This document shows positions 4,066 to 18,432 of a stretch of DNA of 24,530 bases, piece after piece (position 1 is the first letter of the stretch; the number at the start of each line of letters is the position of its first letter). The DNA is from a virus, in the IMG/VR virus record IMGVR_UViG_3300020169_000109, positions 1 through 24,530 of that record. One strand, 5' to 3'. The notes under the pieces are model-generated. The model searched no databases, was not told the origin of the DNA, and saw only the letters and a program-made list of their open reading frames with translations. The position numbers were made by a program, and so were the translations under genes.

Positions 4066-4389
4066 ATGACAAAATCCGAAGTATTAAAGGTTATGATTGA
4101 TTTCTTTCATGAGCAGGGACGTGTGCCCTCTAGAAGTGAATATTATAAGCTAGGACCAGACGTATGGCCTATCAATCCAAGACTTTTAACAAGATATTTT
4201 AGAGGTAGGGGTTATAACTCTATCGTTAAAACTGCTGCACAGATGTATCCTGCAGATTGGAACTCAATTGGTAGTAAGCCTGTTGAAGAACCTAAACCAA
4301 TGAAAAAGCCCGTTCTTGAGCCGGCTTCAGAAGATGACCTTTCTCCTCTGGAGAAATTAAAATCTATAAAAGGAGAATCAATTGAATAA
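4066..4389 (+). CDS. Small protein with homing-endonuclease-associated-repeat-like domain
   Basis: A 107-residue protein whose ATG directly follows the portal TAA, with GAGGAAA upstream as ribosome site. The first 60 residues are a compact helical unit: KSEVLKVMIDFFHEQGRVPS, then RSEYYKLG, INPRLLTRYFRGRGYNSIVK. The pattern G-R-V-P-S/T, short helix, R-Y-F, G-Y-x-S-I/A resembles the DNA-binding repeat often attached to homing endonucleases. The rest (residues 63-107) is a Pro/Glu/Lys-rich linker. In this position it may help head assembly or bind DNA at the portal; neither is shown. The 3' end supplies the AGGAG site for the capsid gene and overlaps it by 8 bases. Confidence 0.55.
   Translation: MTKSEVLKVMIDFFHEQGRVPSRSEYYKLGPDVWPINPRLLTRYFRGRGYNSIVKTAAQMYPADWNSIGSKPVEEPKPMKKPVLEPASEDDLSPLEKLKSIKGESIE
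4371..4384 (+). promoter_or_regulatory. Ribosome site deciding a TTG start for the protease-capsid fusion
   Basis: AGGAG at 4371-4375 is 6 bases upstream of TTG at 4382-4384. The protein from this TTG starts MNKIFHIGSTFKAYEDG, matching the expected N-terminal strand of an HK97-type prohead protease. The first in-frame ATG afterwards (4454) would delete that strand. Confidence 0.7.
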
Positions 4390-6418
4390 AATTTTTCATA
4401 TTGGCTCCACTTTTAAAGCCTATGAAGATGGGGATGATCTCCATATCACAGGTATGGCCAGTACTAATAGTACTGACCGAGTTGGAGATATTATTGAATC
4501 TGAAGCCTGGACAAAGGGCGGACTTCAAAACTATTTAAACAATCCAGTTATTCTTTTTAATCACGACTACAACCAGCCGATTGGCCGAGCAATTTCGCTT
4601 GGTACTAACGACAATGGTCTGCAGCTAAAAGCAAAAATTGCTAAATCTGCTGGACATGTAGGAGAGTTAATTAAAGAAGGCGTCCTTGGAGCTTTTTCAG
4701 TCGGGTTTCGAGTCAAGGATGCGGAGTATATGACCGAAACCGATGGATATAAGATTAAGGACGCAGAGTTATTGGAGGTTTCCGTAGTTACGGTTCCTGC
4801 TAACCAAGCTGCTACCTTTTCTCTTGCTAAGTCTTTTAACTCTGATTCAGAATATGAAGACTTCAAGAAATCTTTCAAAACAGTAGATTCCTTAACAGAA
4901 TCTAATAAACTTCAGGAAACTGAAAAACATCTAGATTCCGTTAACGAATCAATGCCTACCGACTCTGATAAAGTCGAAGCACAGGAGAAAACTATGAGTG
5001 ATATCGATATTGATGCGATTGTGGCTGCTGCTGTCGAAAAGACCGCAACTGCAATGGCAATGAAAGAAGCTGAACGCAAGTCAGAAGAGAAAACGCGATT
5101 GGAAGCAGAACAAAAAGCTGCTGCCGAAGCCGAAGCTCAGAAGTCTGCACAAGAAGCTCAAATTGCAACCGCTGTATCTAGTGGTGCAGAACGTTTAATG
5201 GCTGACGTCGAAGCAAAAATGAGTGCTAAAGACGCTGACCATGCAGAAATTATTGGTTCATTGCAAAATGAACTGAAAGAAAAAGCCGCTGAAATTGAAA
5301 AAATTCAGCAGAGCAAGCGAGTCTTCTCAGACCGCGCTAGCCAAAAGTCTGAATTGTCAGAAGAAGATATGGTAAATGCACACGTTTTGGGTGTAGTTAC
5401 TAATAAAGGTATGGACACTCGTTTTGGTCGTTCTATCATGGAAAAAGTTAATGCCAGCTCTGGTGTAACTGTTCCTACTTCTACTACTGCGGACTTTGAG
5501 TCAACAGTATCTACCGCTATTCAGCGCGATATTGAGCTTGAACTCGTTCTTGACCCTCTTTTCCGTAAGATTCAGATGAATGCTGCTTCTATGGTTATCC
5601 CAACTATGCCTGATTCAGGTTACGCAGAGTGGCTTGGTAGCAATGCTGCCGGCACCGGCGCAGGTTCTGCCTTCAAGGGTAACTTAGGCGATCGTGATGA
5701 AGCTTCTCCTGGCGCTAACGCTGGTATTGGCTTAGGTAGCAAAGTCTTGACCGTAGAAAAGTTGGTTTCTAAGTCTTTCATGGCTAATGAAACTGAAGAA
5801 GATGCAATTATGCCTATTCTTCCTTTGATTCGTGAAGCTATGGTACGTGCTCATGCACGCGCTATTGAGCATTCAATTCTTCAAGCTGGTCATACTGCTG
5901 AAGTAGTAAACTCTGGGGGCCAAACTGGTCTTATCCAGCAGGCTATTGCTGCTAGCAAGAAGCTTGATACTGGTGCTTCTGCTGGTGCAGCTAGTGTTAC
6001 TGCTACTACTGCTGCTTTGTTGAATATGCGTCAAGCAATGGGTAAATACGGTCGTCGTCCTTCAGACGTAGTTTATGTTGTATCTTTAGATGCATACTAC
6101 GATTTGCTTGATGATGCTGAATTCCAAGATGTAAACTTGGTTGGTGGCGATCGCGCTACTAAGATTTCAGGCGAAATTGGTCAGGCTTATGGCTCACCCA
6201 TTATCGTTTGTGACGAGTTTACTGCCGGTAAAACTGCTAACAAGGTTTGGGGTGTTGCTGTCAATACTCGTAACTTCCTTGTACCAGTATTACGTGGTGT
6301 AACTGTTGAATCAGACTACGATGTTGAAAATCAGCGTCGAGTACTGGTTGCTACTCAGCGTCGTGGCTTTGATGTCATGTTTGCTGATGCAGGACAAGTT
6401 GTTTGTCACGCTTGGTAA
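4382..6418 (+). CDS. Prohead protease - scaffold - major capsid protein fusion
   Basis: A 678-residue protein with three parts. Residues 1-150 are an HK97/U35-type prohead protease: LFNHDY (H61), GAFSVGF (S106) and ELLEVSVVTVPANQ (E132), the expected catalytic set. Residues about 205-320 are an Ala/Glu/Lys-rich coiled coil, the scaffolding (delta-like) region. Residues about 325-678 are an HK97-fold major capsid protein: RFGRSIMEKVNASSGVTVPT, the P-domain-like helix AMVRAHARAIEHSIL, NMRQAMGKYGRRPSDVV, and the C-terminal QRRGFDVMFADA. HK97 itself keeps protease and capsid separate; fused versions are known in other phages. An AGGAG plus ATG at 4983-4996 lies in frame at residue 205, so a 474-residue scaffold-capsid protein is probably also made. 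In the capsid domain all Arg codons I read are CGN, unlike downstream genes rich in AGA. A hairpin follows the stop. Confidence 0.9.
   Translation: MNKIFHIGSTFKAYEDGDDLHITGMASTNSTDRVGDIIESEAWTKGGLQNYLNNPVILFNHDYNQPIGRAISLGTNDNGLQLKAKIAKSAGHVGELIKEGVLGAFSVGFRVKDAEYMTETDGYKIKDAELLEVSVVTVPANQAATFSLAKSFNSDSEYEDFKKSFKTVDSLTESNKLQETEKHLDSVNESMPTDSDKVEAQEKTMSDIDIDAIVAAAVEKTATAMAMKEAERKSEEKTRLEAEQKAAAEAEAQKSAQEAQIATAVSSGAERLMADVEAKMSAKDADHAEIIGSLQNELKEKAAEIEKIQQSKRVFSDRASQKSELSEEDMVNAHVLGVVTNKGMDTRFGRSIMEKVNASSGVTVPTSTTADFESTVSTAIQRDIELELVLDPLFRKIQMNAASMVIPTMPDSGYAEWLGSNAAGTGAGSAFKGNLGDRDEASPGANAGIGLGSKVLTVEKLVSKSFMANETEEDAIMPILPLIREAMVRAHARAIEHSILQAGHTAEVVNSGGQTGLIQQAIAASKKLDTGASAGAASVTATTAALLNMRQAMGKYGRRPSDVVYVVSLDAYYDLLDDAEFQDVNLVGGDRATKISGEIGQAYGSPIIVCDEFTAGKTANKVWGVAVNTRNFLVPVLRGVTVESDYDVENQRRVLVATQRRGFDVMFADAGQVVCHAW
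4983..4996 (+). promoter_or_regulatory. Internal ribosome site and in-frame ATG inside the protease-capsid gene
   Basis: AGGAG (4983-4987), 6 spacer bases, then ATG (4994-4996) in the same frame as the TTG at 4382. The product would start MSDIDIDAIVAAAVEK at residue 205 of the fusion, at the protease/scaffold junction, and be 474 residues long. The spacing is at least as good as that of the upstream start. Confidence 0.7.
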
Positions 6419-9053: not shown

Positions 9054-9087
9054 AAATAAAATGGCATTACAATTTACAAGAAATGCA
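9050..9087 (+). repeat. 38-base exact repeat, copy 1 (ribosome site plus tail tube start)
   Basis: The 38 bases from GGAG through the ninth codon of the first tail tube gene are identical to 10469-10506 in front of the second copy. The duplication therefore included the translation signal. Confidence 0.9.
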
Positions 9088-10464
9088 GGAGTATACATAG
9101 AATTACTAGACTCTAGTACAGGAAAGCCAAAAGCTCACTGGAAAATGTCTGTTCTTGATGGATTTTCCTTTACTCAATCAATTAACTCATCAGAGATTAC
9201 AATTAATGAAGCAGGAGCTACTTCAAGACGAGCAAGATTGCTCTTTAACGATAGTTTAGCTCCTGTAGAGTGGTCTTTAAGCACATACGCTCGTCCTTTC
9301 TTAGATTCGGCTCCTGCTGTTTGTAGGGCTCCGGAAGATGTACTGTGGGCTATGGCTTTGGGCGCAGATGACTATAATGACACTTCAGGTGTCTTTTCTA
9401 ATGTATCTTTGACCCCAGATGTTCCAGTAAATACTGCCACTTCGGGAAGCAACACATTTAATTTTAATGGATCCAATGTTTCTTCTTTCGGAGATAATTG
9501 GAACATGTACTTTGCTTTCGAGGATGGCACAAATACTCAGTATTATAAGCTTGGAAGTTCGGTCGTAAATTCAGTATCAATGGACTTTGATATTGACGGT
9601 ATTGCTACTATCTCTTGGAGCGGATTTGCCAAAGAGTTAGGTGACGAAGGGGTTGTTCAGCCCGGCTTTATTAAAACCGCAGCTAACAGAACCCAGTATA
9701 CAGTAACTGGAGCTACTGGAAACGCTGGAACCCCTAATGTGGTAACAGCCTTAACTGGCGACACGACAGGGCTAGTGGTGGGTAGTCGTATTTTTGTAGA
9801 GGGAAACACTGCTTATGATACTCCAGCAACAGGGGCTCTGATCACCGCCGTAGTTTCAAATACTTCTTTCTCTTATGAAATTACGACTAATATTACTACT
9901 GCTGATCACTTTAACGGTACTTTTGGACTAACTCCTACGGGGATTAGCGCTAAAAACACCGAAACAAGTGGTTTAACAACAACAACAAACTTTATTCGTA
10001 ATCGTATTTCGACAGTAACTCTTGATAGAACCGATGTAGTTAAAACGTATGAGCTTGTCTTAACCGGCGGTAGCTTTACCTTAGAAAACAACATTAACTA
10101 CCTGACTCCTGAAGAATTAGGTGTTGTAAATGCTCCATTAGCTAACATCACTGGCGCTCGGTCTATTTCGGGATCAATGACTTGTTACTTAGATAATGAT
10201 AGTGCTGCAAATAAGTCTGGCACTCTTTTTGCAGACTTAGTAGCAGATACATCCACTATTAGAAATATATTTGAGATGCAGCTTCAAATGGGAGGAGCCA
10301 CGCCTAGTACTCCACGAGTTTATCTAGACATGAACTCAGCCCATCTAGAAATTCCCACTATTAACGTTGAAGATCTTCTTACTCTTGAGATTAACTTCCA
10401 TGGCCAAGTACTTGGCGGTGATGTGGATTTAACCAACGAAGCAACTATTATTTATAATACGTAA
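9061..10464 (+). CDS. Major tail tube protein, copy 1, with internal beta-sandwich insertion
   Basis: A 467-residue tail tube-type protein, strongly paralogous to the next gene. Shared core blocks are MALQFTRNA, VLDGFSFTQSINSSEITINE, TSRRARLLFNDSLAPVEWSL, WNMYFAFEDGTN, DFDIDGIATISWSGFAK, TNFIRNR, NNINYLTPEELGVVNAPLAN and LEIPTINVEDLLTLE. Residues about 203-303 are an insert absent from copy 2: YTVTGATGNAGTPNVVTALT, TTGLVVGSRIFVEG, LITAVVSNTSFSYE, a beta-rich decoration type seen in phage virion proteins. Good AGGAG site 7 bases before the ATG. The protein would polymerise around the tape measure as hexameric rings, with the insert probably on the outer surface. The tail tube call follows from position between tail terminator and chaperone/tape measure genes. 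Confidence 0.8.
   Translation: MALQFTRNAGVYIELLDSSTGKPKAHWKMSVLDGFSFTQSINSSEITINEAGATSRRARLLFNDSLAPVEWSLSTYARPFLDSAPAVCRAPEDVLWAMALGADDYNDTSGVFSNVSLTPDVPVNTATSGSNTFNFNGSNVSSFGDNWNMYFAFEDGTNTQYYKLGSSVVNSVSMDFDIDGIATISWSGFAKELGDEGVVQPGFIKTAANRTQYTVTGATGNAGTPNVVTALTGDTTGLVVGSRIFVEGNTAYDTPATGALITAVVSNTSFSYEITTNITTADHFNGTFGLTPTGISAKNTETSGLTTTTNFIRNRISTVTLDRTDVVKTYELVLTGGSFTLENNINYLTPEELGVVNAPLANITGARSISGSMTCYLDNDSAANKSGTLFADLVADTSTIRNIFEMQLQMGGATPSTPRVYLDMNSAHLEIPTINVEDLLTLEINFHGQVLGGDVDLTNEATIIYNT
9244..9290 (+). repeat. 47-base exact identity patch, copy 1
   Basis: 47 bases coding for FNDSLAPVEWSLSTYA are identical to 10645-10691 in the second tail tube gene, although the DNA just upstream carries many synonymous differences between the two copies. 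Confidence 0.85.
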
Positions 10465-10468
10465 TACT

Positions 10469-10506
10469 GGAGAAATAAAATGGCATTACAATTTACAAGA
10501 AATGCA
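10469..10506 (+). repeat. 38-base exact repeat, copy 2
   Basis: Identical to 9050-9087; it covers the GGAG ribosome site and first nine codons of the second tail tube gene. Confidence 0.9.
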
Positions 10507-11829
10507 AAAGTATACATCGAACTACAAGGTTCTCAAGTATGGCAACTTTCTGTACTAGACGGGTTTTCTTTTACTCAGTCTATTAATTCTTCAGAAATTA
10601 CTATCAACGAAGCCGGCTCTACATCTCGTAGAGCCCGTCTTCTTTTTAACGATAGTTTAGCTCCTGTAGAGTGGTCTTTAAGCACATACGCACGTCCTTT
10701 CGAGGAAAGTGCGAGTCAGGTAAGGTGCCCAGAAGAAGCTTTATGGGCAATGATGTTTGGTGCAGATGCTTACTCCGCAGGTGTTTTTAGTAGGACTGGT
10801 TTCGTTGAAGTAACTGGAATAGCTGGGGTTCCTGGTGCGGCTCTTATCGCTAATGGTCCAGAATATGAAATTACAACTGAAGGTGATACAAACTGGACGG
10901 CCATTGGGGCTTTAGATGCTACGGCAGGCACTCGTTTTATCTATAATGGTGAAGACATTACAGGTACTACAGGCGTTGCAAAGCTCACTAAGAATATTAA
11001 TACTCTTACGAATGATTCGGATGAAGATCCTGGAGATGCTAATATTTTCAATCTCTCTAAGTCTAACGTATCTTCGTTTTCAGACTCCTGGAACATGTAC
11101 TTTGCTTTTGAGGATGGTACTAATAAGCAATACTATAAACTAAGTAGTGCTGTAGTAAATTCTGCCTCAGTAGACTTCGACATTGATGGTATTGCTACTA
11201 TCTCTTGGAGTGGTTTCGCTAAAAACTTAAGCGACGAAGGAACCTCTCAACCAGGAGTACTTGCCGCCGCTAGAGCGGAAGGGCTTACTTCCACCACTAA
11301 CTTTATTCGTAATCGTGTATCTACTGTAGACCTCACTAGAACGGATAAGTTTATCGGGGATGTTGATAGTCCTTTAGGTGAATCGGATACTTCTGGGGCA
11401 ATCAAAGATGTTTACCAAGTAGTTCTAACTGGAGGAAATTTTACGATTGAGAATAATATCAACTACCTGACTCCCGAAGAATTAGGTGTTGTAAATGCTC
11501 CATTAGCAAACATTACCGGAGCCAGAAGCGTTAGTGGAAGTTTAACTTGTTACTTAGATAATGATAAAACTAATAGTAAGTCTGGGGAACTCTTCGCTGA
11601 TTTAGTCTCCGATACAAGCACTATCAGAAATGTGTTTGATCTAGGCATTAATATTGGAGGAGGTGCAGTAAGTACTCCTAGATTAGGTTTTTCTTTGCCG
11701 ACGGCTCATTTAGAAATTCCTACTATTAACGTTGAAGACCTTCTTACTTTAGAAGTTAACTTCCACGGCCAAGTGCAGGGTGGCGACGTAGATTTAACCA
11801 ACGAAGCAACCATTAGTTACAAGGCATAA
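10480..11829 (+). CDS. Tail tube protein, copy 2, with a different insertion
   Basis: A 449-residue paralogue of the preceding protein with the same core blocks along its whole length. It lacks the ~100-residue insert of copy 1. Instead it has ~65 extra residues at about 107-171: GFVEVTGIAGVPGAALIANG, YEITTEGDTNWTAIGALDAT and GTRFIYNGEDITGTTGVA. This matches a short beta motif (Y-x-I-x-x-x-G-x-T-x-W-x-A-I-G-A ... GTGTA) common in marine phage virion proteins. A second small insertion (DSPLGESDTSGAIKD) lies near residue 300. The two proteins may form mixed rings, segregate along the tube, or act in different morphogenetic steps. The stop at 11829 is followed within 13 bases by promoter P3. GGAG lies 7 bases before the ATG. 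Confidence 0.8.
   Translation: MALQFTRNAKVYIELQGSQVWQLSVLDGFSFTQSINSSEITINEAGSTSRRARLLFNDSLAPVEWSLSTYARPFEESASQVRCPEEALWAMMFGADAYSAGVFSRTGFVEVTGIAGVPGAALIANGPEYEITTEGDTNWTAIGALDATAGTRFIYNGEDITGTTGVAKLTKNINTLTNDSDEDPGDANIFNLSKSNVSSFSDSWNMYFAFEDGTNKQYYKLSSAVVNSASVDFDIDGIATISWSGFAKNLSDEGTSQPGVLAAARAEGLTSTTNFIRNRVSTVDLTRTDKFIGDVDSPLGESDTSGAIKDVYQVVLTGGNFTIENNINYLTPEELGVVNAPLANITGARSVSGSLTCYLDNDKTNSKSGELFADLVSDTSTIRNVFDLGINIGGGAVSTPRLGFSLPTAHLEIPTINVEDLLTLEVNFHGQVQGGDVDLTNEATISYKA
10645..10691 (+). repeat. 47-base exact identity patch, copy 2
   Basis: Identical to 9244-9290 in the first tail tube gene. Confidence 0.85.
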
Positions 11830-11934: not shown

Positions 11935-12858
11935 GTGAGTTTTGAATTTATAAGAGAAGGCCGAGTATGGCTGGAGTATCCAACTAATACTTTTTACCTT
12001 CTTCATACAATGAAAGATGTCACTTTCTCCCAAACCTTTCAACAAGAAGGAGTTGCAAAAAGAACTTTGCATAGCCCGAATAATTTGTTTGAAGGTTCCG
12101 TCATCAATAGAGCAAATCCAGCAGACTTCTCTTTCACTTTGTATATGATGGATGAAGCCTCGCTATACCAGCATAAGCCTCTGGATTTATTATTAGATTA
12201 CAACGGAAATAGTTTAAACACTTTCAATCTTTATTTTGTATACCAGAACAAAAGTCCTGCGGTTTACTATAAGATAGAAAATGCAGTTTTTACTAGTGGA
12301 ACTTTCAATATTCCAAGAGCTGGAATAATGACAGTGCCTCTTTCCGGACAAGGAACTAAACTTACGAGAACAGAAGGAACATTTAATCCTTCTCTCGGTA
12401 CTTATGATACTACACCAAGTTTCGCAGTATCAAAAGAGTTCATTGTATCCGTTCAAGGAAGTGATTTAGATAATATTCAGGGAGCATCCCTAGAGCTACA
12501 AAACGATATATCTTGGACAAAGAATGATACTATTCATCGTACTCAAGATGTAACAGATGCCTCCAATACAATCTACCCAAACTCCTTCACTTTAGAAGGA
12601 AGAACTTTGGGTGGAAGTATTACTCAATATATTGATAATACTAATACTGAATCTATTGATAATTTATTTACTTGGAGTGAAAATGCTTCTGTACGTATTC
12701 GTGCCGGATTTTCAGCCGCTGATTTGCAATTAGATATAAATATGCCAAGTGCTTGTTCTTTTACGAATAGACCCGCCTTTGGTGAAATTTTCTCACAAAA
12801 TTATGATTTTCGTCTAATGAGCAACCCAGCAAATTTAAACACTTATTTTACTTATTAG
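11935..12858 (+). CDS. Third, divergent tail-tube-like protein
   Basis: A 307-residue protein from GTG with AAGGAG 7 bases upstream. It follows the same block order as the two upstream tube proteins at much lower identity: FIREGRVWLEY, DVTFSQTFQQEGVAKRTLHS, PADFSFTLYM, FNLYFVYQNKSPAVYYKIEN, FNIPRAGIMTVPLSGQGTKL, LELQNDISW, LEGRTLGGSITQYIDNTN and LDINMPSACSF. It has no large insertion, so it may show the minimal fold. It has its own promoter (P3) and leader. It could be a specialised ring at the tube end, a tube initiator next to the tip, or an adaptor to the terminator. The homology is my reading of aligned blocks and needs structural confirmation. Confidence 0.65.
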   Translation: MSFEFIREGRVWLEYPTNTFYLLHTMKDVTFSQTFQQEGVAKRTLHSPNNLFEGSVINRANPADFSFTLYMMDEASLYQHKPLDLLLDYNGNSLNTFNLYFVYQNKSPAVYYKIENAVFTSGTFNIPRAGIMTVPLSGQGTKLTRTEGTFNPSLGTYDTTPSFAVSKEFIVSVQGSDLDNIQGASLELQNDISWTKNDTIHRTQDVTDASNTIYPNSFTLEGRTLGGSITQYIDNTNTESIDNLFTWSENASVRIRAGFSAADLQLDINMPSACSFTNRPAFGEIFSQNYDFRLMSNPANLNTYFTY

Positions 12859-12865
12859 GAATTAT

Positions 12866-13297
12866 ATGAAATTAACAGATTTAATGGTAGACACCAAGTC
12901 AGCTTGGATGGATTTCCCGGGCTGCCCTGGGTTTCAAGTAGAAGTAGCTAACTTAGCAAGAAAAGAGCTTGTTGCTTTAAGAAAACGATGCGTTAGTCAG
13001 AAGTTTGACAGAAAAACTCGTCAAATGGTAGAAGAGCTAGACGAAGATAAGTTTGTGGTAGAGTTTGCCAGAGCAACAATTAAAGGATGGAAAGGCTTAA
13101 AATTAAAGTATCTAGAAGACTTAATCTTGGTCAACCTTAATGACCAAGACCTAGAGTTAGAGTTAGAATACGACGAAGAACAAGCACAAGTAATGGTCCA
13201 AAACTCTACAGAGTTTGATAACTGGATAAATGAGGTAGTCTTTGACCTTGCCAACTTTCGTGGAGGATCAAAAAGAGCTTCTATGGGAGAGGTTTGA
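12866..13297 (+). CDS. Tail assembly chaperone (G-like, zero frame)
   Basis: A 143-residue, acidic, helical protein (KLTDLMVDTKSAWMDFPG, FQVEVANLARKELVALRKRC, FARATIKGWKGLKLKYLEDL, ELELEYDEEQAQVMVQNS, FDNWINEVVFDLANFRGG) with the size, charge and position (tube gene upstream, tape measure downstream) of lambda gpG-type tail assembly chaperones, which bind the tape measure protein. AGGA lies 5 bases before the ATG. Its 3' end overlaps a second open frame (from 13239) that has no good start of its own, the usual sign of programmed recoding to a longer G-T fusion protein. Confidence 0.75.
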   Translation: MKLTDLMVDTKSAWMDFPGCPGFQVEVANLARKELVALRKRCVSQKFDRKTRQMVEELDEDKFVVEFARATIKGWKGLKLKYLEDLILVNLNDQDLELELEYDEEQAQVMVQNSTEFDNWINEVVFDLANFRGGSKRASMGEV

Positions 13298-13652
13298 TAA
13301 GTGGCAAAAAAATAGCAATGTCGGGATGACCAAAGAAAAATACCTGGAGATGGAGGAACAATTAGGAAGAGAACCAAACCCCGATAACTGCCCTCCAGGT
13401 ATAGAAGACTTTCCTGATTCTGTGTCTGAGTCTATCCAGATATTTAATTATCTAGGAGACAGAGTTTATCCAGAGATAGGATATATGGGCAAGGACTATA
13501 CAAATTTACCCATACTTATGGAAGTGTATAATATACAAGATAAAGATTTTTTATTAGAAACTTTATCTAGGCTTGACGCAGAGGCAATAAAAGTTTCTCA
13601 AGAGAGACTAAAACGCCAATACGACAAGATGAAGAGTAAATCACGTGGCTGA
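13239..13652 (+). CDS. Tail assembly chaperone frameshift extension (T-like)
   Basis: The frame opens after the TAG at 13236-13238 and ends with TGA at 13650-13652. Relative to the upstream chaperone it is in the +1 (equivalently -2) frame. Possible starts (TTG 13242, GTG 13260) have no ribosome site, so expression as a fusion is more likely. A +1 slip at 13271 would give a 261-residue fusion; a -2 slip at 13289 a 262-residue one. The T part contains ELLWERFDKWQ, LEMEEQLGREPNPDNCPPG, YMGKDYTNLPILMEVYNI and a C-terminal helix LLETLSRLDAEAIKVSQERL. In lambda the T extension recruits tail tube protein to the tape measure complex. The 3' end overlaps the tape measure start by 8 bases. Confidence 0.7.
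   Translation, partial: SLTLPTFVEDQKELLWERFDKWQKNSNVGMTKEKYLEMEEQLGREPNPDNCPPGIEDFPDSVSESIQIFNYLGDRVYPEIGYMGKDYTNLPILMEVYNIQDKDFLLETLSRLDAEAIKVSQERLKRQYDKMKSKSRG
13268..13297 (+). other. Candidate programmed frameshift region (+1 or -2)
   Basis: Two positions allow perfect re-pairing into the T frame. AAA (13271-13273) can slip +1 to AAA (13272-13274), with an AGA codon next in the zero frame. GAG (13289-13291) can slip -2 to GAG (13287-13289), close to the zero-frame stop TGA at 13295. No -1 heptamer helps, because the -1 frame is not the T frame. Confidence 0.5.
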
Positions 13653-16600
13653 TAGTTCAGTATTATTAGAAGTAATAGTTGAAGGCAAAAATATTAAAGT
13701 TGTCCAGAGAGATGTGGAAAGCTTAACTGCGTCTGTCAATAAAGCTGCGGGTGCTGAAGAGGAAAGTACTAAAGGTAAAAAGAGAGGTAAAAAAGCTACT
13801 GATGATTTAACTGATTCTAATAAAAATTATAATAGGGGTCAGAAAGGTGTAGCTGGTTCTACCTCTAACAGTACTAAAGCTTTTAGTAAACAGAGAGACC
13901 TTCTTGGCGGCGGTTCTTCCGGACTTGTCGGGGCTTATGCTACTCTTGCGGCTAACATTTTTGCTGCAACCGCTTTGTTTGGTGCTTTACAAAGAGCCGC
14001 GCAAATAGAGCAACTAAGTAGAGGTCTTGTAGAGCTGGGCAAGGCCTCAGGCTTATCGCTCGGTACTCTTTCAAATGGTTTGAGACAAGCTACCGGAGAC
14101 GCTATTAGTTTGGAACAAGCTATGAGATCCACAGTAGCTATCACTAGTGCAGGGCTAGATCCTAGCTCTATTGAGGCATTTGGATCCGCAGCTAGAAATA
14201 TTGCGTTAGCGTTGGGTAGAGACACCACGGACTCTTTAGACAGGTTAACTCGCGGTGTTACTAAACTAGAGCCCGAATTACTAGACGAATTAGGGTTATT
14301 TATACGAGTCGATGAAGCCGCTGAAAAATACGCTTTAACTATAGGTAAAGCCGCATCTCAACTTACCAGTTTCGAGAAACGATTAGCTTTCCAGAATGCC
14401 ACTTTAGAACAAGCTAAAGAAAAGTATGGCTCTATAGGAGAGTCCATAGATGTTAATCCCTATGATAAACTAGCTGCCGCCTTGCAAGACTTAGCAAAAA
14501 TTATTGGTTCGGGTCTTAACACTGTCTTAGCTCCTTTAATAGGTTACTTAGCTACTAGCCCCACAGCTTTGGCTGCAGGTATAGCTCTTCTGGGGGGAAA
14601 AGTTTTACAATCTGCTATTGGCGCTCTGGTTCGGTTCGATACTACAGCCGAAAACGCTACTAAAAACCAAAAAAAGCTTAGCCAGCAACTAGCAAAACAG
14701 TTACCCCAACTCAACAACTCTTCTAAAACTTTAAAAAAAGTAACAGACGCAATGGCGGAAGGCTCAGTTTCTACAGAGGATTTAAAGTCAGCCTTAACTC
14801 AACAAGAAAATATTGTGAGAAGAACTAATAAATCTATGGGAACGTTATATGTTGGATTAGGTAAGGTAGGAACTCAGAATAAAAACGCAAAAAAAGCGGT
14901 ACAGTTACTAAATACTGGCCTGATGAACAATCATATAGAAACGGCCAAGGTCGCTACATCAGAAGCTGTCGCAGCTATTCAAGCTGGAAACTTTGGCTTA
15001 GCTTTAACAAAATTAAAAGTTAAAACAACCTCTTATGGTTTGGCAGCGAATACCGCAAAACTAACTACAACAGGTCTCTCAGCATCTTTCGCCGTAGCTA
15101 AGGTAAGGGCTCTTTCGTTTGCCTCTTCTTTAGTTGTTGTTGGCGCTTCCTTCCTAAAAGCAATCCCTTTTATAGGTACTTTTATAGCTATAGGTACTAT
15201 ACTTTGGGATATTTTTAAAGGTATTTGGAACTATTTTAAAAGCGACGACACCAAACAATTTGAAAGCCAAGTAAGTAATTTGTCAGATACTACTAAAGAT
15301 CTAGCTGAAGGACTAAGAGAAGTAGACAAAAGTTTAGTAGGTCAAAGTAGAATAATAGTTAAAACCTCTGATACTTATGGCGCTTTAGCTAATAATATTA
15401 GTCAATACTTAGGGGAATATGAAAAGCTAGGAAAAGGAGGTACAGACCAAGAGCGATTAGATTTGCTTAATCAATACATAAAGGGTTCAGAACTTCTTTC
15501 TATAAAAAGAGATGAACTGGTAAAAAATAGTAATTTAGAAGAGTTAAGCACTAAAGAACAGTTAAAATTAACTAAAGCACTTCTATCTGAAACACAAAAA
15601 AGAGCAATGTCGATTAAGACTGTGGGAGAGGCGTCCAAAGAAGTAAATGATCAATTTAAAAAACTACAACAAGGCTTAAAAATAACAACCCCATTTACTG
15701 AAGCTACTGGAGCTGTTTCCGCTCTTTCTCAGGCAATAAAAAAAGCAGAGGAACAAGGAAAGGACATAGGTTCTGCAATTTTGGAAAACCTAGACACTGC
15801 TACTATAGACTACTTAGGTTTAGATGAACAAGCGAATAAATTAAAAGAAATTGAGGCTGGTATTAAAGCAATCGATAGAGATGCGATAGCAAAAAAAGGG
15901 GACGCAGAAGATAATTGGATGGCTTGGACTTTTGGCTCTAAACAATTGAAAGATAGGCTGTTAGGAGAGATTAAGGCAGGAACAGAGGAAGCTGCAAAGT
16001 TAGCAGCATTAAAAGAACAAGAGGACTCAACATCTGAAGGAATAAAAGAACAGGTAGAACAAAGAAGACAAGTTTTAAAAACTTTAGATGACACCTTAAG
16101 ACTCAGCAAAGTACAAATTGCTGCTGAAAAGTCACAAATCGCTATACTTAAAAAAAGTAATATAAATCAAGAAGCAAACATAAGAAACATAGATGCTGCA
16201 GAAAATAAACTTTTAGACACAAAAATAGAAGCAAACAAGGCTGTTCATGATGAGTTTAACGTTAGGAAGAAAGCCTTTGATATTAACCTTGAAGCTGCTA
16301 AAGCTGCTTCTGATGCTGCTTCTGCTGCTGGAGCAAACTCTGCTGAAGCTATTTCAGCAGCAGCAACTTTAGCAGAGTTAAAGGACAGGGAAATAGATCT
16401 GAATGCTGAAGACAATAAATTAACAAATGAAGGTTTAGAACTGGCAGCGAGTAAGATTAGTGAAAAGCAAACTGAATTAAATGTTCAGAACGGGATTATG
16501 GCTGCACTACAAGAAACTCAAAAGTACGAGCACGAGTCTCTTAAGTTAAGGGAAAGATATGCTAAACTTAGCAACGACATAGCAAACTCTCAAGCGGCTA

Positions 16601-18432
16601 TAGCAAGGTCAGCGCTAGAGCTTTCAAGAGCAAAAACAGGAACTGGACTAACAGAAGAAGACACGGCAAACTTAGACAGAACAGCGGCTGATAGAATAAA
16701 AACACAAGAAGAAGCTAGTCTCGTTTTAAAAAAAGAAGGGATAGAGCTAGAATACAATCTTCTAGATGCTAAACTAAAAGTGATGTTAGCTGAGTTAGAA
16801 GTAGCGCTTGAAAAAGGAAAACTAGGAAAGGATCAATATAACTCCGCTAAAAAAGCATTAGATTTGGTGGATATTGCAGCTACAAAGGAACAGGCAATTG
16901 AACACGCAAAGCAAAAATCGAAAGAAAGAATAACCCTCGCAGAAAATAAAGCCCAAATATCTAGAATTAAAGCGGACGATGCCGCGGATAGACGACGTAT
17001 AGTAGAGCTACGAAATAGAGCCGATTTCTACGAAAGTCTGGGGGACATAGCAACTGCTACTGCAATGAGAGAGCTCGCCCTTACACAGGAAAGAGCAATT
17101 TTAGAGCAACAAATACAGGCCGGAAAAACAGCGGGTTTAGATGTATCAGCAGTAGAATTCGATAGATTAAAGAAAATGCAAGAACTCATAGCAGCTCAAA
17201 AAGGAGTTGTAGCAGCAGCCTCTCAAGGCGCTACAACTGCAGATAGAGTGAAAAGTTTTCAAGGAGCAGGAGGGTTTGGTGCGATTGATAAAGCCGCCGA
17301 AGGCCAAAAAGAAATATTAACGGAAAGAAAAACAGAAATAATACAATCTTCCACACTTGGATCAAGAACTCCAGAACAACAAGCAGAACTAGACGGAATA
17401 GGAGTAGCTCTTGAACGTATTCCTTTGGAAGCTTCTAGAGCTAAGATTGCTGCTATGAGGGAACAGTTAAGCCCAATGCTGGAAGAGTTAAAGCAACTAG
17501 GGCCCCAAGGAGCTGTAGCTGCTGCAATAGGGGAAGGGTCTTTTGTGATACAAGACAGTCTGACTGTCTTAGGTACTGCCGCCTCAACCAGCGCGGAAAA
17601 ACTGGCAGCTGTTGCTTCAATGGTTGGAGCTGTGGCAAGCATTATGAGCGCATCTTCCGACTCAAAAATAGCATCTATAGATGCGGAAATTGCTGCAGAG
17701 AAGAAAAGAGACGGAAAATCTGCAGCAAGTTTATCAAAAATTAAAAGTATGGAAGCTAAGAAAGAGAAGATGGCAAGAAAAGCTTTTGACGTAAATAAGA
17801 AATTGCAAATGGCTTCAATTATGATATCTACTGCTTCTGCAGCTATGGCAGCTTGGGCGCCTCCTCCTTTAGGCGCAGGACCTGTACTGGGAGGCTTTTT
17901 AACAGCAGCGATCATAGCTATGGGAGCAGCTCAATTAGCAATTGTAGCAGGAACTTCTTACCAGGGAGGAGGCTCAGGAGGAGGAGGTAGTATGCCTTCT
18001 TCCATTAGCGTAGGAGAGAGATCAAACTCTGTAGATGTATCACAGAAAGCTTCAGGATCAGAACTCGCAGGACTTCGTGGAGGAAATACTGCAAATATAG
18101 GAGGAATGCCTCCTACTCCAGCTTTCATGGGCTCTAAATATCGTGCCGCTGGCGGACCAACCGCCGGATACGTTGTCGGAGAGCAAGGTCCAGAATTATT
18201 TGTTCCAGAAACTTCAGGAAGAGTTGTTCCTAATGATGAAATGCGTAACTCTCAACCTCTCAATGTTAACTTTACTATTCAAGCAATCGATTCTTCTAAT
18301 TTCACAGACGCCCTAACAACTCAGCGTGGAAATATTATAGGCATGATTCGAGAAGCCGCCAATACCTATGGAGAAACTTTTTTAGAGTCCGTAAACGACA
18401 CAGCAATCACAACAGGAAACGGTAAAATCTAA
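13645..18432 (+). CDS. Tail tape measure protein
   Basis: A 1595-residue protein, by far the longest complete one here, started by GTG overlapping the chaperone stop. It sets tail length and leads DNA ejection. Hydrophobic segments lie at about 93-116 (LVGAYATLAANIFAATALFG), 296-320 (LAPLIGYLATSPTALAAGIA), 490-525 (VVVGASFLKAIPFIGTFIAI) and 1390-1437. Between about 545 and 1390 it is almost all charged helix/coiled coil rich in Ala, Glu, Lys. The C-terminus has the tape measure signature GGPTAGYVVGEQGPELFVP (about 1503-1521) followed by SGRVVPND. At the usual ~1.5 angstrom per residue it predicts a tail of roughly 240 nm, a long siphovirus tail. I see no lysozyme or peptidase motif. Confidence 0.9.
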   Translation: MADSSVLLEVIVEGKNIKVVQRDVESLTASVNKAAGAEEESTKGKKRGKKATDDLTDSNKNYNRGQKGVAGSTSNSTKAFSKQRDLLGGGSSGLVGAYATLAANIFAATALFGALQRAAQIEQLSRGLVELGKASGLSLGTLSNGLRQATGDAISLEQAMRSTVAITSAGLDPSSIEAFGSAARNIALALGRDTTDSLDRLTRGVTKLEPELLDELGLFIRVDEAAEKYALTIGKAASQLTSFEKRLAFQNATLEQAKEKYGSIGESIDVNPYDKLAAALQDLAKIIGSGLNTVLAPLIGYLATSPTALAAGIALLGGKVLQSAIGALVRFDTTAENATKNQKKLSQQLAKQLPQLNNSSKTLKKVTDAMAEGSVSTEDLKSALTQQENIVRRTNKSMGTLYVGLGKVGTQNKNAKKAVQLLNTGLMNNHIETAKVATSEAVAAIQAGNFGLALTKLKVKTTSYGLAANTAKLTTTGLSASFAVAKVRALSFASSLVVVGASFLKAIPFIGTFIAIGTILWDIFKGIWNYFKSDDTKQFESQVSNLSDTTKDLAEGLREVDKSLVGQSRIIVKTSDTYGALANNISQYLGEYEKLGKGGTDQERLDLLNQYIKGSELLSIKRDELVKNSNLEELSTKEQLKLTKALLSETQKRAMSIKTVGEASKEVNDQFKKLQQGLKITTPFTEATGAVSALSQAIKKAEEQGKDIGSAILENLDTATIDYLGLDEQANKLKEIEAGIKAIDRDAIAKKGDAEDNWMAWTFGSKQLKDRLLGEIKAGTEEAAKLAALKEQEDSTSEGIKEQVEQRRQVLKTLDDTLRLSKVQIAAEKSQIAILKKSNINQEANIRNIDAAENKLLDTKIEANKAVHDEFNVRKKAFDINLEAAKAASDAASAAGANSAEAISAAATLAELKDREIDLNAEDNKLTNEGLELAASKISEKQTELNVQNGIMAALQETQKYEHESLKLRERYAKLSNDIANSQAAIARSALELSRAKTGTGLTEEDTANLDRTAADRIKTQEEASLVLKKEGIELEYNLLDAKLKVMLAELEVALEKGKLGKDQYNSAKKALDLVDIAATKEQAIEHAKQKSKERITLAENKAQISRIKADDAADRRRIVELRNRADFYESLGDIATATAMRELALTQERAILEQQIQAGKTAGLDVSAVEFDRLKKMQELIAAQKGVVAAASQGATTADRVKSFQGAGGFGAIDKAAEGQKEILTERKTEIIQSSTLGSRTPEQQAELDGIGVALERIPLEASRAKIAAMREQLSPMLEELKQLGPQGAVAAAIGEGSFVIQDSLTVLGTAASTSAEKLAAVASMVGAVASIMSASSDSKIASIDAEIAAEKKRDGKSAASLSKIKSMEAKKEKMARKAFDVNKKLQMASIMISTASAAMAAWAPPPLGAGPVLGGFLTAAIIAMGAAQLAIVAGTSYQGGGSGGGGSMPSSISVGERSNSVDVSQKASGSELAGLRGGNTANIGGMPPTPAFMGSKYRAAGGPTAGYVVGEQGPELFVPETSGRVVPNDEMRNSQPLNVNFTIQAIDSSNFTDALTTQRGNIIGMIREAANTYGETFLESVNDTAITTGNGKI

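Follow-up and report, generated by a model that had tools for sequence, protein, structure and literature searches.

Probable +1 frameshifting at an invariant UUU_CGN site in the tail assembly chaperone genes of T5-type phages, and its likely counterpart, a -1 site at the homologous codon, in an adjoining lineage

The IMG/VR record IMGVR_UViG_3300020169_000109, of which 24,530 nucleotides (the window) were analysed here, is a linear record of 24.5 kb that carries the virion-structure module of a tailed virus: terminase, portal, capsid, tail-tube paralogues, G, T, tape measure, distal tail protein and further tail genes. Like the gpG/gpGT pair of phage lambda (PMC5009743), G and T are overlapping frames placed between the tail-tube and tape measure genes, and the second frame has no plausible start codon of its own. 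The T frame is open from 13239 to its stop at 13650-13652 and lies in the +1/-2 relation to G. The question raised by the locus is how ribosomes gain access to T, and at which codon. An earlier note on this DNA had held that T requires a shift of +1 (or formally -2) in place of the usual -1, and that it lacks its own start; both statements are borne out by the window and its relatives. The features on which the argument rests are as follows.

12866-13297, + strand: G, short form of the tail assembly chaperone, 143 aa (open reading frame; match to phrog_313, "Tail assembly chaperone", E 3.5e-15; Shine-Dalgarno-like AGGA upstream).
13236-13238, + strand: T-frame TAG, the 5' limit of the permitted slip interval (read from the sequence).
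13253-13261, + strand: putative +1 slip site AAC_UUU_CGU, with UUU 13256-13258 in the P site, C 13259 skipped and reading resumed at GUG 13260 (conservation).
13260-13652, + strand: T as it would be read after the shift, 130 aa plus stop (match to phrog_3914, "tail assembly chaperone", E 4.5e-20; codon periodicity before and after ATG 13326).
13295-13297, + strand: TGA stop of G, the 3' limit of the permitted slip interval (read from the sequence).
13326-13328, + strand: T-frame ATG, the gene start in annotations of the T5.142 type, judged not to be a start (Shine-Dalgarno-like core scarce; ATG lost in 6 +1-type relatives).
13645-18432, + strand: tape measure protein of 1595 aa, on which G and GT would be expected to act (match to phrog_3779, tail length tape measure protein, E 1.4e-68).

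G, T and the tape measure gene thus follow one another as matches to phrog_313, phrog_3914 and phrog_3779, the arrangement of a G-T type chaperone pair. By the common rule of 1.5 angstrom per tape measure residue, the 1595-residue protein of the window would correspond to a tail of about 240 nm. Upstream of G, a tail-tube-like protein appears to have been duplicated in tandem: the neighbouring paralogues at 9061-10464 and 10480-11829 have near-identical starts (MALQFTRNA.VYIEL...), the former matching phrog_3575 (major tail protein), and a third tube-like gene, of the baseplate tube p140 family, begins at 11935. Further upstream, a single frame of 678 aa (4382-6418) apparently joins a prohead-protease-like N-terminal part to a major-capsid-like C-terminal part, as judged by eye.

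The relatives of the two frames were assembled using the following approach. Viral contigs with relatives were found by single-protein scans, and G and T were placed by profile searches, which yielded 243 loci, including 15 isolated T5-type phages (T5 among them). After the removal of duplicates, T stands in the +1 relation in 125 loci, a set made up of T5, 14 T5-like phages drawn from many genera and a number of uncultured contigs; it stands in the -1 relation in 62, and in 3 no T was found. With G as the query, tblastn found related sequences, roughly 30-38% identical, in 887 phage records, most of them T5-like. The window's G and T are related by sequence to T5.143 and T5.142 (alignment A1), and "T5-type" refers here to this relatedness of G and T; in the tree of GT fusions the window's clade lies far from T5. 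A sequencing error, which the earlier note had named as a possible source of the frame relation, is ruled out, as the same relation is common to a contig whose G is 96% identical (L001) and to the other +1-type relatives, and recurs in many contigs.

The earlier note had placed two perfect re-pairing sites in the overlap, AAA_A at 13271-13274 and GAGAG at 13287-13291. Both exist, but exact re-pairing sites in the window number three: the third, TTT_C at 13256-13259 (followed by CGT), lies upstream of the other two and is the only conserved one. Examination of the distinct +1-type relatives shows an in-frame TTT_CGN (as TTT_CGT, TTT_CGC or TTT_CGA) inside the permitted interval in 124 of the 125, and since clustering of these relatives at 70% G identity gives 18 groups, the invariance goes beyond near-copies. 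In 69 of 69 representatives all five bases of TTTCG are fixed, even the third base of the Phe codon, where a change could be synonymous, and most flanking bases vary. Elsewhere in these genes TTT accounts for 75% of the Phe codons, and CGN for only 39% of the Arg codons. The codon preceding the hexamer, which would occupy the E site, is AAY, ACT or CAC. The permitted interval is reduced to about 11 bases in My1 (TAG-ACTCCTTTCGT-TAA) and in Vibrio phage 70E38.1 (TAA-ACAACTTTCGT-TAA), and in both phages UUU_C is the sole possible slip. The lone +1-type relative without TTT_CGN (L017) has TTT_GCT. At L017:4350-4400 some 50 junction bases are gone (GTG TTT GCT GGA AAA), lost in a genuine deletion or through faulty assembly; its G and T are otherwise intact.

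With the putative slip site excluded, TTT_CG occurs in the G genes of the +1-type relatives at 0 of 17,700 other codons, versus 12 per 8,275 codons in the G genes of the -1 relatives, hinting that the hexamer may be avoided in G genes where it is functional. Within the coding sequences of the window, UUU_CGN is found in frame at three more places (3637, 4706 and 12808), so the bare hexamer probably promotes shifting at a low level only, and some part of the context may be missing from the description. Downstream RNA structure in the +1 clade does not rise above background (mean z of -1.04, compared with -0.98 for the control segment; -0.1 for the window), and a Shine-Dalgarno-like element of the prfB kind was not found within 20 nt upstream of the slip site in the 69 +1-type representatives.

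These observations make it very probable that a T5-type tail assembly chaperone is made here in two forms, G and GT, the latter by a +1 slip at UUU_CGU (13256-13261). Most ribosomes would read G through to its own stop. In a minority, the P-site tRNA-Phe paired with UUU 13256-13258 would, with CGU as the A-site codon, slip by one base and re-pair with UUC 13257-13259; reading would then resume at GUG 13260 and give a fusion of 261 aa (131 + 130), with the predicted junction ...DLANF-VEDQK... in place of the GSKELLW and MGERFDK peptides proposed in the earlier note. By analogy with lambda gpG/gpGT, G may coat the tape measure protein and the T part may recruit tail-tube subunits. Presumably the bare hexamer yields little shifting, in keeping with the known excess of G over GT in lambda (PMC5009743). 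What the sequences show is the frame relation, the lack of a T start, the conservation and uniqueness of UUU_CGN and the coding constraint on the T frame; from these we infer the slippage itself, its +1 rather than -2 direction, that it is inefficient, and that both products act as chaperones.

Most annotations of T5-type genomes treat T as a gene in its own right that begins at the ATG equivalent to 13326, as in T5.142, Sugarland and many T5-like phages, and Sugarland and T5 have been stated to have no frameshift signal (PMC6256483). The ATG is indeed kept in 116 of 122 +1-type relatives, and T could be initiated there separately, possibly by translational coupling or by reinitiation past the G stop. 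This is very improbable, however, on three counts. A Shine-Dalgarno-like core precedes the T ATG in 5 of 116 relatives, whereas G has one in 122 of 122; the remaining six relatives have ATT, ATA, CTA or TTC in place of the ATG; and the T frame is already constrained upstream of it. Between the G stop and ATG 13326, substitutions per codon at T-frame positions 1, 2 and 3 amount to 0.28, 0.17 and 0.51, compared to 0.27, 0.18 and 0.48 after the ATG, a periodicity which implies that the intervening stretch is translated in the T frame. T would thus have no start of its own and be read as an extension of G. In Sugarland, ACT_TTT_CGT stands in frame and leads into the open T frame, and the annotated T start lies 102 nt downstream. 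The GenBank entry KP143763 (Shivani) carries a joined chaperone coding sequence with a span of 832 bases, which implies a +1 or -2 join, on which the genome paper is silent (PMC4342426).

Where T is read as an extension of G, the two sites favoured in the earlier note compete with UUU_CGN, and the conservation among relatives speaks for the latter. A +1 slip on AAA_A (junction ...GGSKELLW) would have perfect re-pairing in the window, and the site is present in 64 of 125 relatives, but it is missing in 61 of them and in 7 of the 13 closest relatives examined (the window counted), and it is both absent and impossible in My1, 70E38.1, pVp-1 and VspSw_1. Moreover, the T-frame residues directly after UUU_C and upstream of AAA_A are conserved above the G tail in most codons, a constraint that would be unneeded if the shift came later; we consider this slip very unlikely. 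A Mu-like -2 slip on GAGAG (junction ...MGERFDK) is slightly less likely again. The site is present in the window, and phage Mu, whose T is likewise in the +1/-2 frame, uses this direction for its GT (PMC5009743, PMC3498833), but the +1-type relatives share no conserved two-back re-pairing site: an exact -2 site of any kind occurs in only 44 of 125 and in none of the phages with the shortest intervals, and the constraint on the T frame begins upstream of GAGAG. The lambda-like -1 heptamer class does not apply to the window, whose T lies in the +1/-2 frame.

Shifts of -1, -2 or +1 have been described for the tail chaperones of different phages, including a "very likely +1" case in HSTV-2 (PMC5009743), a haloarchaeal myovirus that shares the +1 relation of its chaperone pair with the window and belongs to another virus group. 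In lambda, as would be expected here, the short form is in excess and the fusion is the minor product, but lambda shifts by -1, unlike the +1 relation and conserved UUU_CGN of the window. The siphophages SPP1, PSA and A118 (the latter two of Listeria) also employ +1 recoding in a tail gene, although in that for the major tail protein; in PSA the shift occurs on a proline codon beside a stop codon or pseudoknot. The closest parallel in sequence is PA-X of influenza A virus, where UUU_CGU is a proven +1 site that no longer shifts once altered to UUC_AGA and that has no known stimulator (PMC3498833). An in-frame UUU with C next to it, and CGN as the A-site codon, is the sequence pattern of that type of slippage and is found here as well. 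Both sites have the zero-frame core UUU_CGU (UCC_UUU_CGU in PA-X), with +1 movement of the P-site tRNA-Phe, proposed in the case of the phages, and downstream structure is neither needed in PA-X nor found in the +1-type phages. The two systems differ in that PA-X belongs to an RNA virus of a eukaryotic host and to an unrelated gene, in the E-site codon (UCC versus AAY, ACT or CAC), and in that CGU is rare in the host of influenza virus and not in E. coli, a host of T5 (table in PMC3498833). The likeness is one of mechanism, not of kinship.

The relatives in the -1 relation present a different picture. A canonical heptamer lies in the permitted interval of all 62 sequences: 52 carry A_AAU_UUU before ACN, and the other 10 carry G_GGA_AAC before UUY. 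In alignment A1, A_AAU_UUU falls on the same Asn-Phe codons as the AAY_UUU of the +1 clade. The tree of GT fusions places the -1 sequences on one side of a single branch (100/96), adjoining the window's clade, with the T5-type phages beyond; MAFFT kept 265 of 1447 columns for this tree, several T5-like rows form long branches, and its root is not secure. The -1 clade also exhibits downstream folding (mean z of -2.46, versus -0.42 for the control). In the main -1 group, 18 representatives share an 8-bp stem that begins 8 nt past the heptamer and is 92% paired, and whose covariation amounts to 6 double-change cells, as opposed to 1.1 in shuffles and at most 2 when the stem is slid along the alignment. 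Some members with G_GGA_AAC have little downstream structure. In the G_GGA_AAC subclade (L124, L130, L141, L143, L144 and L148, with junctions near 1878-1956) the heptamer is situated half a codon pair upstream.

On this basis, it is likely that the whole T5-type family, T5 included, uses +1 shifting at the invariant UUU_CGN, and that one large uncultured lineage then switched to -1 at the homologous codon, gaining a canonical heptamer (A_AAU_UUU, with G_GGA_AAC taking its place in a subclade) and, in its main group, the stem-loop. Since the root of the tree is not secure, the direction of the switch (from +1 to -1 or the reverse) is itself a matter of inference. Six +1 phages (L020, L157, L160, L167, L170 and L178) carry A_AAU_UUU_CGU, which is competent for both kinds of slip. 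Comparison of UUU-CGN with UUU-ACG indicates that one inserted base would turn a need for +1 into a need for -1, and a one-base insertion after UUU is a plausible shortest path for the switch, although variation in the distance from the slip to the conserved core of T keeps it short of proof.

Should the comparative evidence hold, T5-type phages, with close to 900 deposited records, carry a miscalled gene start and an undescribed fusion protein of 260-280 aa, although the T5 site may have been mentioned earlier in the subscription literature. This would include the textbook phage T5, in which the tail-chaperone pair is annotated as two genes. The family would also provide a clean natural case of a programmed frameshift that changed direction at a single codon, whether towards -1 or towards +1, with both products kept. 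In addition, a hexamer common to a bacterial virus and to influenza PA-X would allow the role of CGN in the A site, which the PA-X study did not settle, to be tested in E. coli.
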